From a virus, in IMG/VR virus record IMGVR_UViG_3300042376_000873, positions 1 through 29,442 of that record: a stretch of DNA of 29,442 nt. One strand, 5' to 3'. The position numbers were made by a program, and so were the translations under genes. Shown here one piece after another: positions 5,940-14,355 of this stretch (within the stretch, counting starts at the first letter, position 1; every line of letters begins with the position of its first letter). The notes under the pieces were generated by a model. It did no database searches. It was not told the origin of the DNA and was given only the letters and a program-made list of their open reading frames with translations.

Positions 5940-6045
5940 GATGTGAATCCTTTCTCATCGAGATTCCGACCAGAATGCCCAAAACAAACGTCGCACCCTG
6001 CACCACGAATCCCACCGTGATGCACACCAGCTGCTCGACCGTCAT
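5881..6045 (-). CDS. Small single-pass membrane protein, 54 residues
   Basis: ATG 6045 overlaps the stop of the LexA-type HTH gene as ATGA. The first 30 residues form one membrane helix (LVCITVGFVVQGATFVLGIL), followed by a short polar, basic, glycine-rich tail. Such tiny membrane proteins are common in phage early operons and may affect host membrane functions or superinfection, but nothing here shows which. Support is the coupling and the clean hydrophobic segment. Confidence 0.5.
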   Translation of the reverse strand: MTVEQLVCITVGFVVQGATFVLGILVGISMRKDSHRGQGEGQGLTGSQPVGRKL

Positions 6046-6263
6046 GGGGTCACCTCAATTCCCCGGGTGGAATTGGGCCGGCGTCTGATCCAGCCCTTCT
6101 TCTCGAGGGCCTCGAGGTGGACGACCACCCCATTCGGGCTCTTGATCGACATCGCCCTGGCGATCTCTCGCACAGTCGGCGAGTAGAGCTCCATGTGCGA
6201 CGTGATGAAGTCGTACGCCTGCTTTTGCCTCGCCGTCAGCGGGACCTTCTCGGCCGTCGTCAT
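6042..6263 (-). CDS. LexA-type winged-helix DNA-binding protein without peptidase domain
   Basis: The 73 residues correspond almost exactly to the LexA N-terminal DNA-binding domain: LTARQKQAYDFITSHMELYSPTVREIARAM, then SPNGVVVHLEALEKKGWIRRRPNSTRGIEV, where the recognition helix and wing are both present. The S24 peptidase half of LexA, with its Ala-Gly cleavage site and Ser-Lys dyad, is absent, so RecA-stimulated self-cleavage is not possible. It has a perfect AAGGAGGT Shine-Dalgarno 7 bases before ATG 6263 and overlaps the replication gene as ATGA. It is likely a small transcription regulator; its sites are unknown. Family call strong, target inferred. Confidence 0.85.
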   Translation of the reverse strand: MTTAEKVPLTARQKQAYDFITSHMELYSPTVREIARAMSIKSPNGVVVHLEALEKKGWIRRRPNSTRGIEVTP

Positions 6264-11813: not shown

Positions 11814-12062
11814 TCAAAACGGGAGCAAGTTCCCGATTGGCCACGGCCGTGGATCGACCTCGACGATGTCGGTGGCGGTCTCCACGAGCAGCTTCCCGTT
11901 GTGGTGGTCAGTGATCCGGCCGTCGTCGTACGAGCTGTCGCTCCAGCCCTTGAGGCGGAACGAAACGTGATCGCCGACGGCGAACGTGTTCTGCGTGTTC
12001 GTGCCGTAGGTCTCCTGCATTCCGGCGACTGCTGCGGCGTATTCGGCGTGATGAGCATCCAT
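11814..12062 (-). CDS. Small SH3-like barrel protein, first gene of early operon
   Basis: The 82-residue product starts at ATG 12062 with AAGGAG about 9 bases upstream; a longer reading from 12119 is less likely. Residues 25-82 (NTFAVGDHVSFRLKGWSDSSYDDGRITDHHNGKLLVETATDIVEVDP) are strand-rich and fit a small KOW/SH3-like barrel, as in small phage proteins that bind nucleic acid or protein. It is the first gene downstream of the operator-bearing early promoter (leader of about 150 bases). About 150 bases without a gene separate it from the ATPase. Confidence 0.65.
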   Translation of the reverse strand: MDAHHAEYAAAVAGMQETYGTNTQNTFAVGDHVSFRLKGWSDSSYDDGRITDHHNGKLLVETATDIVEVDPRPWPIGNLLPF

Positions 12063-12189
12063 GTGGGTCGTCTCCTTCGTGTGTGGGGCAAACATATACG
12101 GCTGTTCAGTTGCTGGCAATCTAGTGGTCAGGCATTCCAGTTGGTGTTTTGGGGATTAGAAATTGCGTTCATCAGTCATGGGTTTACGT

Positions 12190-12207
12190 GTGCCGCTAAC
12201 GTCACTT
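12190..12207. promoter_or_regulatory. Second operator copy downstream of the early start site
   Basis: The plus strand reads GTGCCGCTAACGTCACTT, matching the consensus GTAnCGnTAnCGTTACTT except at positions 3 and 14. It starts 30 bp from the operator inside the early promoter and covers about +3 to +20 of the predicted transcript, where a bound repressor would act as a roadblock or cooperate with the first site. No promoter elements flank this copy. Confidence 0.55.
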
Positions 12208-12216
12208 TTGGGCAAG

Positions 12217-12244
12217 AGCGTACCGATAGCGTTACTTGTGTCAA
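12217..12244 (-). promoter_or_regulatory. Early-operon promoter with operator in its spacer
   Basis: On the minus strand a perfect TTGACA (12244-12239) is followed after 16 bp by TACGCT (12222-12217). The spacer is filled by an 18-bp operator copy, whose plus-strand reading at 12220-12237 is GTACCGATAGCGTTACTT. A predicted start near 12210 would transcribe the recombination and replication genes. The TTGACA overlaps the stop codon of the 47-residue gene. The sequence is seen; promoter activity is inferred. The same layout recurs at 12785 and 13126. Confidence 0.6.
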
Positions 12245-12384
12245 GCAAGAAACCGGGAGAGCGTGGAAACAACGAGGTCGATGCCGTGAGCGACCGCCTG
12301 GGCGAGGTCACTGTCAGTGCCGAGCTGCTGCCCAAGGCGGACGAAGACGAGGGCTTGAATCAGCCGGTCAAATCTTTGTTTCAT
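12241..12384 (-). CDS. Small protein, 47 residues, with strong Shine-Dalgarno
   Basis: AAGGAGG lies 9 bases before ATG 12384, the best such site in this stretch. The product is a single amphipathic, mostly hydrophobic protein: KQRFDRLIQALVFVRLGQQL, DSDLAQAVAHGIDLVVSTLSRF. It lies between the control region and the early promoter, and its stop codon is inside the TTGACA box of that promoter. It could be a small regulator or an inhibitor peptide. No family recognised. Confidence 0.5.
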   Translation of the reverse strand: MKQRFDRLIQALVFVRLGQQLGTDSDLAQAVAHGIDLVVSTLSRFLA

Positions 12385-12454
12385 CGCTTGGCCCTCCTTG
12401 GCCGAGAGAATCCTTTAGCCCGCTGGCACTATGGCCGGCAGGCAAGTCGTGTTT

Positions 12455-12733
12455 TCAGGCAGCGGCAACCGTGACGGCAAAGCCATCCAGGATGCCACTG
12501 ACAGTGGTGGCTGCCTCGTCGGCCCTCACCCAGGTGCCGTGCTTAAGGCCAGCAGATGGGCAGACGACAGAGTACGTCGCTGGGCCTGGCTGCCAGCCCA
12601 TGCGTCCGCTGGGCATAAGGCATTCCACGAAAGGACGACGGCAGTAAACGTGAACGTCTTCACGCCCGATCCACCGGCACTCGCCGGAGGCTAGGCTGGC
12701 AATCTGCTGGCGGACGTGTTTGCTAGAGCTCAT
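12455..12733 (-). CDS. Unknown small protein under operator control
   Basis: The 92-residue product (ATG 12733; an in-frame TTG at 12766 would add eleven residues) has scattered cysteines (GECRW, VYCRRPFVECL, VVCPS) and tryptophans, a pattern of a compact strand-rich fold, and an alanine and valine-rich C-terminus. Its promoter candidate lies only about 45 bases upstream of ATG 12733 and carries the shared operator. Position in the control region suggests a regulator of the lysis or lysogeny choice, but no DNA-binding motif is visible. Confidence 0.55.
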   Translation of the reverse strand: MSSSKHVRQQIASLASGECRWIGREDVHVYCRRPFVECLMPSGRMGWQPGPATYSVVCPSAGLKHGTWVRADEAATTVSGILDGFAVTVAAA

Positions 12734-12784
12734 CGCTTTGACTTTCTGCTCGAGGTCCGCGAGCAACCGTGCTCGCTTGGCCCT

Positions 12785-12812
12785 AGTGTAGCGTTATCGT
12801 TACTTCATGCAA
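12785..12812 (-). promoter_or_regulatory. Promoter with operator in its spacer (for 12455-12733)
   Basis: The minus strand has TTGCAT (12812-12807), a 16-bp spacer, then TACACT (12790-12785). The operator, GTAGCGTTATCGTTACTT on the plus strand at 12788-12805, fills the spacer, in the same register as at the early promoter. The predicted start is near 12778. Seen directly: the motifs and the equal spacing. Inferred: promoter function. Confidence 0.55.
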
Positions 12813-12855
12813 GGGCTCTTGAGAAGATTTCTCTGGGGGCGGTTTTCCTCGAGGA

Positions 12856-13119
12856 TTACGAGGGCTTCCGCTTGCGGCTCGGCTTGGGTGCCGCCGGCTT
12901 CTCGGCTCGTCTGCCTACGGATCGGGTGGACAGGCTGGCCTTGAGGGCCAAGGCGTCAACCCGCTTAACCAGCCACGCCCGCTCGCCGGCCTTCCAGCCG
13001 GTCAGCCTGGGATCCTCGGCGATGAGGAGCCGCCGGATGTAGCCCTCAGTGCAGCCGCAGAGCTTTACCGCTTCGGCGACTGTGATCCACTCTTTGTCTG
13101 GTGAGGCCACGGCAATCAT
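12856..13119 (-). CDS. Excisionase/MerR-type HTH protein, candidate switch regulator
   Basis: The 87-residue protein has an excisionase-like winged HTH (ITVAEAVKLCGCTEGYIRRLL, then LTGWKAGERAWLVKRVDALALKA, residues 12-62) and a very basic tail (GRRAEKPAAPKPSRKRKPS). It sits beside the integrase but divergent from it, as Xis or repressor genes often do. Its promoter contains the shared operator, and the predicted transcription start coincides with ATG 13119, so the message would be leaderless like cI of phage lambda; GTG 13110 is an alternative start. It could be Xis, the repressor, or both. HTH clear, role inferred. Confidence 0.75.
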   Translation of the reverse strand: MIAVASPDKEWITVAEAVKLCGCTEGYIRRLLIAEDPRLTGWKAGERAWLVKRVDALALKASLSTRSVGRRAEKPAAPKPSRKRKPS

Positions 13120-13125
13120 TCCCGG

Positions 13126-13153
13126 AATGTAACGCTAGCGTTTTCAGTGTCAA
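13126..13153 (-). promoter_or_regulatory. HTH-gene promoter with palindromic operator; predicted leaderless transcript
   Basis: The minus strand has a perfect TTGACA (13153-13148), a 16-bp spacer and TACATT (13131-13126). The spacer holds the most symmetric operator copy, whose core AACGCTAGCGTT is a perfect 12-bp palindrome (18-bp site 13129-13146). A start 7 bases past the -10 falls on the A of ATG 13119, leaving no 5' leader. Autoregulation of the HTH gene is the simplest reading. Confidence 0.62.
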
Positions 13154-13434
13154 ACATACGCGGACAACCTTGGTCCGTATTTCACCAAGCGATCACCCGT
13201 TTCGGATTCCCGCTTTGTCGTGTTCACTAGAAACGCTGTACACTATCAACCGACCCGAAAAGGGGCGATTATTCTAGCGGATGGGGTGCAGATTGAAGCA
13301 CTGTACATGGTGTGCAGAGTTTCGAGCGGAGTGAGCGGACGGCCAACCTTGGTCCGTCCACTTGAGCCGCAAACTTGAACACCTGTACACTATCCGCTAG
13401 GATCGCCCCTCAAACCCAAAAGAGGAGAGCGAAG
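13154..13434. other. Repeat-rich integrase upstream region, putative attP and int promoters
   Basis: This gap has no gene but dense structure. CAACCTTGGTCCGT occurs twice directly (13165-13178 and 13344-13357), and the second lies in a hairpin with ten-base arms GGACGGCCAA and its complement, one bulge (13337-13359). CTGTACACTATC occurs twice (13236-13247, 13383-13394), each giving TACACT with an upstream TTG box 18 bp away (TTGTCG 13215-13220; TTGAGC 13362-13367). GGGGCGAT..TAGCGGAT (13262-13282) is repeated inverted at 13392-13409. GAGGAG precedes the integrase start. Arm and core sites of a tyrosine integrase and two tandem rightward promoters would explain this; the attP core itself is not identified. 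Confidence 0.5.
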
Positions 13435-14355
13435 ATGCAGCTGAAAGACCTGTTGATTGACCGATTTGCCCCACACAAGGACCTGTGCGACCGGACGGTG
13501 GCGATGTACGTGGCGACGCTGGCCCGCCTGCGAGACTTTCTGGGCCGGGAGCCGACCGTGGACGACCTGGACGACCTGACGGTGGCCAAGTTCCTGCGGT
13601 GGCGGCGTGTCACCCAGCACTCACGGTGGAAGCTGATCAGCCCGGCGTCTCTGGCGAAAGACTCGGCCCACATCCGCACCCTGTGGAACTGGCTAGCCAA
13701 AAAGCGGTGGAAGCGGTCAGACGGCCAGATGATTGAGTTCCCCGACTACGCCAGGCCGAAGGTGCCGAAGCCCGTGCCGAAGGCATACAAGGCCGAGGAG
13801 CTCGTGCGGCTCGTCGAGGTCGGCAGGCGGCGAAAGGGCATGGTGTCGGGCAAGCCGGCCGCCTGGTACTGGCCGACGAAAATCATGGCCATGTTCCAGA
13901 CCGGCGAGAGGATCGGTGCCATCTTGCAGATACGCTGGTCGGAGGTGGACCTCGAGCGGCACACGCTGACCTTCCTGGCTGCCACCCGCAAGGGCCACAG
14001 GGAGACGATTACACGGCCGATCACGCCAGACCTAGCAAAGATGCTGGCGGCCCAGAAAGGCCCGCCAGAGGCTCGCGTATGGCCTTGGCTGGACGACCGG
14101 GAGCCGCTGTCTGCGTACAACAGCCTGCGGGTGCTTTGCCGTGTGGCTGGCGTGCCGTACAAGCCGTTCCATGCCATCCGCAAATCCACGGCCAGCTACC
14201 TCAAGCGGGCCGGGATCTCGGCGAAGAAGCAACTGGGACATTCGTCCGAGGAAATGGCCGAGAACCACTACTACGACGAGGAGATCACCGGCAGGGAATC
14301 CAACCTGGACTACCTGCCCGACATCGACAAGCCGCACGAGCCGCCAGCGGCGTGA
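13435..14355 (+). CDS. int: Tyrosine recombinase / phage integrase
   Basis: The 306-residue protein has an N-terminal SAM-like core-binding domain (LCDRTVAMYVATLARLRDFLG, residues 17-37) and a catalytic domain with the tyrosine recombinase residues: Arg159 in TGERIGAIL, Lys186 in ATRKGH, His246-x-x-Arg249 in HAIRK, His269 in LGHSSEEMAENHYYD and the nucleophile Tyr279 or Tyr280. The AGAGGAG Shine-Dalgarno fits ATG 13435 (13375 would add 20 residues across the promoter). It is one of two rightward genes. It would integrate the phage at an attachment site probably just upstream; the catalytic set is complete. Confidence 0.93.
   Translation: MQLKDLLIDRFAPHKDLCDRTVAMYVATLARLRDFLGREPTVDDLDDLTVAKFLRWRRVTQHSRWKLISPASLAKDSAHIRTLWNWLAKKRWKRSDGQMIEFPDYARPKVPKPVPKAYKAEELVRLVEVGRRRKGMVSGKPAAWYWPTKIMAMFQTGERIGAILQIRWSEVDLERHTLTFLAATRKGHRETITRPITPDLAKMLAAQKGPPEARVWPWLDDREPLSAYNSLRVLCRVAGVPYKPFHAIRKSTASYLKRAGISAKKQLGHSSEEMAENHYYDEEITGRESNLDYLPDIDKPHEPPAA

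Follow-up and report, generated by a model that had tools for sequence, protein, structure and literature searches.

A putative autoregulated winged-helix repressor and its inverted-repeat operators in the early-control region of a temperate phage group

Four copies of a 16-bp imperfect palindrome (O1 to O4; consensus GTAACGnTAnCGTTAC) lie in the control region of a 29,442-base viral record from IMG/VR, the whole of which was analysed and is referred to here as the window. The four sites are real and beyond chance. They are very probably read by the 87-residue helix-turn-helix (HTH) protein, whose own gene is one of those that they would control. As judged from sequence comparison and structure prediction, the arrangement is rather likely to represent a negatively autoregulated immunity-type repressor with a LexA-type bypass, in a temperate phage without a CI-type repressor.

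Operators, promoters and genes of the control region

The initial annotation had reported four copies of an 18-bp repeat within this region, and a direct check of the sequence found all four at the positions given (Table 1). The shared repeat stands, but the real unit is the 16-bp palindrome, in which six of the eight symmetric pairs are present in every one of the four window operators. The longer consensus fitted less well at 13129, where one arm is degenerate and more than three mismatches occur on the plus strand. A search with the consensus returned seven matches compared with 0.18 expected from dinucleotide shuffles. As such a search is circular, a matrix was built from the sites of other phages only (19 distinct sites from relatives, window sites left out). 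Scoring of the whole window with this relative-derived matrix ranked the four sites first to fourth (23.1, 22.2, 20.4 and 16.6), with the next window score at 12.4 and the reversed-sequence control at 14.2 or below.

Table 1. Features of the control region and related genes in the window.
Feature	Position	Strand	Description
Phage LexA DNA-binding-domain protein	6042..6263	-	73 aa, without protease domain; PF01726 6.8e-20; 49 loci
First gene of early operon	11814..12062	-	82 aa from ATG; 62 loci
P4, second early operon promoter	12091..12119	-	TTGCCA-17-TATGTT; downstream of O3/O4; TTGACn-16-TACACT in relatives
LexA-type box in P4, TGAACAGCCGTATA (- strand)	12095..12108	.	Second-best window match to cyanobacterial LexA core, near chance
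O4	12190..12205	.	Palindromic operator 30 bp downstream of O3
P3	12217..12244	-	Proposed HTH-controlled early operon promoter; TTGACA 12244-12239 / 16 bp / TACGCT 12222-12217
O3	12220..12235	.	Palindromic operator in P3; kept in relatives
47-aa gene of P2 unit	12241..12384	-	tblastn matches in 85 loci
Variable small gene of P2 unit	12455..12766	-	TTG start, ATG at 12733; only 4 loci
5'-terminal hairpin of P2 transcript, GCGAGCACGGTTGCTCGC	12759..12776	-	Begins at about +2
P2	12785..12812	-	Promoter of small-gene unit; TTGCAT 12812-12807 / 16 bp / TACACT 12790-12785
O2	12788..12803	.	Palindromic operator in P2
HTH gene	12856..13119	-	87 aa; winged helix of excisionase/MerR-like type; putative autoregulated repressor for O1-O4
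P1	13126..13153	-	HTH gene promoter; TTGACA 13153-13148 / 16 bp / TACATT 13131-13126
O1	13129..13144	.	Palindromic operator in P1, one degenerate arm
Pint, integrase promoter	13375..13403	+	TTGAAC-17-TAGGAT
LexA-type box, TGAACACCTGTACA	13376..13389	.	Overlaps Pint -35; best window match with two matrices
Tyrosine integrase	13435..14355	+	PF00589 2.6e-9; 76 viral loci; divergent from HTH gene

Relatives of the HTH protein were found at 66 loci in viral contigs (80 by profile search), and across the dozens of related IMG/VR phages compared the sites are kept, in place. In most relatives the O1 palindrome lies at -25 or -26 from the HTH ATG, and the O2 palindrome follows shortly after the end of the gene, at roughly +290 to +326. 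Many of them also carry the O3/O4 pair before the early operon, spaced by 29-31 bp. The length of the cargo from P2 to P3 varies between relatives. In nine relatives scanned over 36-48 kb, the strongest matrix matches mostly cluster in the control region, with a few outliers scoring above control-region sites. Four outliers (G002:31790, G012:30253, G007:34157 and G007:35962), each within or bordering an open frame and far from the control region, were judged to be chance matches.

The three promoter-like pairs are as originally claimed, all leftward with 16-bp spacing and with a perfect TTGACA in two of them. In each of P1, P2 and P3 the operator takes up the greater part of the 16-bp spacer and extends over the first three -10 bases. 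The centres of O3 and O4 are 30 bp apart. O4 would span roughly +6 to +21 relative to the P3 start as predicted, which makes the earlier description of a fourth site covering the start of the early transcript a fair one. Operators inside the -35/-10 spacers, together with a downstream partner 30 bp off on the same helix face, suggest repression by exclusion of RNA polymerase. A palindrome in the spacer and a fold related to MerR-like proteins might also be expected of a MerR-type activator acting within the promoter spacer, which is nevertheless quite improbable here. MerR activators need spacers of 19-20 bp, whereas those of P1 to P3 are 16 bp long and flanked by good -35 and -10 boxes; the protein, at 87 aa, has a short basic tail and no effector domain in its AF2 model; and O4, downstream of the start, could only hinder transcription.

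The P1 -10 box ends 6 nt upstream of the HTH ATG (6-7 nt in nearly all relatives), a closeness from which a leaderless HTH mRNA, starting at the ATG (13119), is predicted. The lambda cI mRNA from PRM is also leaderless, although this is an analogy only. The stems of the P2 hairpin are altered on both sides in relatives (GCGAG..CTCGC, GTCAGG..CCTGAC and GTCATC..GATGAC), and these two-sided changes also support the P2 start site, predicted near 12778. Within the P2 unit, the slot of the variable small gene is filled by different small genes in relatives. The 47-aa frame carries an LGQ(Q/E)LGT(D/E)S motif and is kept across all three of the HTH types described below; searches of Pfam and PHROG with its product gave zero matches. 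The untranslated early leader (12110-12155, minus strand; CTAATCCCCAAAACACCAACTGGAATGCCTGACCACTAGATTG) is near-identical between phages with swapped adjoining operators and is possibly a regulatory RNA or processing signal.

The start codons of the integrase and HTH genes are divergent and 315 bp apart. Several repeats were noted between the two genes: two CAACCTTGGTCCGT copies inside short inverted repeats CGGAC..GTCCG (13162-13178 and 13341-13360), CTGTACACTATC repeated in direct orientation (13236 and 13383), and AGGGGCGAT with its inverted partner ATCGCCCCT (13261 and 13402). These are possibly an attP core or integrase arm sites.

Covariation and exchange of regulator and operators

The outer base of O2 tracks residue 30, in the recognition helix of the HTH protein, in all 48 distinct HTH/O2 combinations. 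Proteins with Arg30 (R-type; helix GYIRRLL or GYLRRLL) go with an outer G..C in GTAACG..TAC-type operators (27 combinations) and those with Leu, Met or Gln30 go with CTAACG operators (21 combinations), the first base holding without exception. One member of the R clade, L192, has the change R30Q and is paired with C operators. The covariation needs two changes on the tree, of which L192 (Gln30), inside the Arg clade, is one; with only two independent changes it is, taken alone, suggestive and not statistically decisive, and a sign test applied to independent pairs lacks power. The gene replacements in phages of types B and C, described below, are further independent events. There is also a recombinant, L213, in which an L-type HTH gene and L-type O2 to O4 stand behind a left-over R-type O1; this O1 lies across the recombination junction and is mismatched to its HTH protein. 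The outer bases are mixed at many of the O1 sites of L-type phages.

The comparison of two phages, L015 and L042, bears on which protein reads the sites. Their early DNA is 96% identical over 563 bp, their 47-aa proteins are identical and their LexA-like proteins near-identical, yet their operators are of different types, each matching its different HTH protein. The phage LexA-type protein, which the initial annotation had put forward for binding tests beside the HTH protein, is thereby disfavoured as the reader of O1 to O4. A reading of the GTAACG operator as an SOS box of host LexA, or as a target of the phage LexA-like protein, is the most improbable of all those considered: the phage does encode a LexA DNA-binding domain and the palindromic shape of the operator resembles LexA boxes, but type B phages lose the GTAACG motif at all promoters together with the HTH gene, and a separate, different LexA-like box is found elsewhere. 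The 47-aa protein was also considered as a reader of the GTAACG operator and is disfavoured, being identical in the pair despite their different operators. Among the LexA-like proteins of 49 relatives the recognition helices vary strongly.

Some phages with related integrases have, in place of the HTH gene, a member of either of two other families. In type B phages, related in integrase and 47-aa gene, the regulator gene is of a different winged-helix family, and an (A/T)TGCAAAGATCnGTCGATATG-like motif stands at all three promoters, at the same promoter places as the type A operators. A matrix from type B O2 sites gave O1 and O3 as the next best matches on each contig. Type A matrices found zero matches at the promoters of type B contigs and the type B matrix zero matches at P1 to P3 of the window. 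Beyond the swapped operators, the P3 leader is near-identical between the window and the type B phage L083. The type B regulator (MIAMANPFAGYMTVRQVM..) was seen in L083, L091, L093, L125 and L237-L259; by AF2 it too is a winged helix, of a second family that occupies the corresponding genetic position. Type C phages have a third motif that is clear at P2 and weaker at P3; an O1 motif was looked for at P1 in these phages and was not found. As an inverted repeat is not obvious in the type B operator either, the layout is not fully uniform.

Swapped genes with swapped promoter motifs indicate that the regulator gene travels with its operators. Such heteroimmune exchange was found for types A-R, A-L and B and partly for type C (at P2, weakly at P3). 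On these comparisons the 87-aa HTH protein is, with little doubt, the reader of O1 to O4. The proposal that one DNA-binding protein serves the HTH gene, the small gene and the early operon holds insofar as one operator recurs in three promoters, with autoregulation by the 87-aa protein probable.

Fold of the HTH protein and its place among known regulators

The suggestion that the switch protein may be of a new kind was too strong, as the HTH protein has a known excisionase/MerR-like winged-helix fold and belongs to the excisionase/HTH_17 family. Its own match to Pfam HTH_17 is weak (E 0.049, below cut-off), while the L-type homologue L054 scores 30 bits, above the 27-bit cut-off, and PHROG matches are mostly to excisionases. 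The AF2 model has the order beta-H-H-beta-beta-H with a pLDDT of 73 (78-86 over most of the fold). Its best PDB folds are Pukovnik Xis (probability 1.00, E 0.037), BldC and, lower, RdfS, with modest E-values and high probabilities. The unusual point is that, together with inverted-repeat operators, a protein of this fold is the sole repressor candidate recognised.

The statement that no CI-type repressor is visible held up when family searches were extended to relatives. Peptidase_S24 was detected in 0 of 20 relatives of 30-48 kb, and HTH_3 gave no match above cut-off in the 20 (one sub-threshold match of 20.1 bits, in G007); the window HTH protein itself has an HTH_17 match only and none to HTH_3. 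The S24 autocleavage domain is missing from some phage repressors. With S24 and above-cut-off HTH_3 proteins undetected in these 20 relatives, a repressor candidate of the usual type is otherwise undetected, which favours an autoregulated immunity-type repressor.

The main rival reading casts the HTH protein as an excisionase and lytic-phase autoregulator of the Cro/Apl kind, with lysogeny kept by another, unrecognised repressor or by host LexA. The excisionase fold and a gene adjoining that of a tyrosine integrase, as expected of a recombination directionality factor (RDF), speak for this reading, as do the known RDFs Apl, Cox and XisF4, which have dual roles beside a separate repressor (PMC7498355, PMC7379572), and the LexA-type boxes at Pint and P4, which offer a second repressing input. 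It is nonetheless unlikely. Besides the 20 relatives without an S24 protein or above-cut-off HTH_3, the 281-bp intergenic region between the integrase and HTH genes (13154-13434) has no TAACG/CGTTA half-sites outside O1 and thus no sign of an att-site array. The sites in the window are inverted repeats and not the direct repeats one helix turn apart at att that mark an RDF, and they overlap early promoters and the regulator's own promoter, as expected of an immunity repressor. The specificity of P1 to P3 also switches along with the HTH gene, as in immunity cassettes.

Comparison with known systems places the favoured immunity-repressor reading among both likenesses and differences. The direct repeats bound by lambda Xis, Pukovnik Xis and Apl are spaced by one helix turn (PMC7498355), and RdfS and BldC form head-to-tail filaments (PMC11963761). 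That known proteins of the excisionase fold act mostly on direct repeats (PMC7498355, PMC11963761) counts against the inverted-repeat model. Apl of coliphage 186, Cox of P2 and XisF4 of Pf4 are, like the protein described here, small excisionase-class winged helices beside a tyrosine integrase, and they also regulate early or lysogenic promoters, in likeness to the role proposed here. Apl, however, recognises direct repeats with a spacing of one helix turn at att and pR-pL (PMC7498355), compared with inverted repeats in three promoter spacers in the window. The phages of Apl, Cox and XisF4 have a separate repressor, while in the window phage no att array was seen and another repressor was undetected. 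RdfS, BldC and Pukovnik Xis share the HTH_17 winged-helix fold with the window protein, and RdfS is thought to repress its own promoter, covering the -35 and -10 (PMC11963761). These proteins form head-to-tail oligomers on direct repeats or bind with relaxed specificity, whereas the inverted repeats here are kept base by base.

The heteroimmune CI/operator cassettes of lambdoid phages are alike in that regulator and operators are swapped as a unit between otherwise similar phages, and in that the operators overlap the -35 and -10 boxes. Unlike in lambdoid phages, the regulator here is not of the CI type and has no RecA-cleavable domain, and the promoters are tandem and not divergent.

LexA-type boxes, the proposed mechanism and its significance

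The picture of a one-operator switch was incomplete, since it missed a second, HTH-independent set of boxes at Pint and P4. This box (TGaaC-N4-GTaCA) is found in the P4 spacer of phages of all HTH types and in nearly all integrase relatives at Pint, and at both places it is unchanged by HTH type. With a matrix of P4 boxes from relatives, the Pint box is the best in the window (18.4), the third-best match scoring 11.6 and the reversed control 9.8. The boxes are similar to LexA boxes of cyanobacteria, for example CGTACGTCTGTACT (PMC3091678, Table 1). An external matrix of the published 12-bp cyanobacterial LexA core (PMC3091678), which may differ from the motif of the host, places the Pint box best in the window and in eight of nine relatives. 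The P4 box ranks second in the window by this matrix, at a score near chance.

A cyanobacterial host is suggested, though not decisively. A few proteins have distant matches in the cyanophages KBS-S-2A, S-CBS1 and S-LBS1. The isolated phages searched contained zero relatives of the HTH protein, as did genome contigs searched with the HTH alignment for a host, and the integrase alignment retrieved from genome contigs only Micromonosporaceae integrases of about 30% identity. The reader of the Pint and P4 boxes is hypothesized to be host LexA or the phage LexA DNA-binding domain, and it is possible that the phage LexA-like protein reads these boxes and not O1 to O4.

In the proposed mechanism, the region would be the immunity and early-control region of a temperate phage. 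The 87-aa winged-helix protein would bind as a dimer to the 16-bp inverted repeat, whose half-sites are 10 bp apart, and bound copies would sit between the -35 and -10 of the three tandem leftward promoters. Of these, P1 would be its own promoter, giving a leaderless mRNA; P2 would serve the 47-aa protein and cargo genes, and P3 the early operon, where another site follows after 30 bp. The bound protein would block RNA polymerase, resulting in negative autoregulation and repression of P2 and P3. Regulator and operators are exchanged as one cassette, like immunity regions. Among the sites of a phage, the weakest is O1 in 13 of 22 R-type but only 7 of 17 L-type phages, a weak and modest fit to a repressor that may keep making itself.

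A RecA-cleavable domain is lacking in the repressor, and for this reason another entry point for induction is proposed. Cleavage of LexA would open Pint and P4 independently of the HTH protein, with expression of integrase and early genes; since P4 is situated downstream of the promoter under HTH control, the early genes would be expressed on cleavage of host LexA while the HTH repressor stays active. We infer that the protein represses and does not activate, that it binds as a dimer, and that the immunity function and the SOS bypass exist. In GIL01, host LexA represses the lysogenic promoter with a small phage protein, gp7 (PMC4551915). That phage is likewise temperate, with LexA-type boxes in control promoters and SOS input without a cleavable phage repressor. 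The present LexA-type boxes differ in being additional to a phage-encoded repressor-operator set, and the LexA DNA-binding domain is here phage-encoded.

Several elements of this scheme are already known, namely early-promoter repressor logic, heteroimmune cassette exchange and LexA input (lambdoid phages; GIL01, PMC4551915), and the dual excisionase-regulators Apl, Cox and XisF4, each beside another repressor (PMC7498355, PMC7379572). The literature search did not find a case in which the one recognised repressor is an excisionase-fold protein and the operators are inverted repeats. We tentatively propose, at less than even confidence, that in an environmental temperate phage group excisionase-fold proteins binding inverted repeats act as the sole phage-encoded immunity repressors, perhaps also as excisionases, and that they diversify as heteroimmune cassettes, with induction via host LexA and a second promoter that bypasses the repressor.

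A regulator-operator pair is thus offered for phages without a detected CI-type repressor. The relation between residue 30 and the outermost base gives a short list of residue-to-base predictions that can be checked with one mutant, and immunity typing of uncultured phages may become possible from sequence alone. The LexA-type bypass, if true, explains how a phage with an uncleavable repressor responds to DNA damage. The system would show an excisionase fold turned into a sequence-specific repressor.
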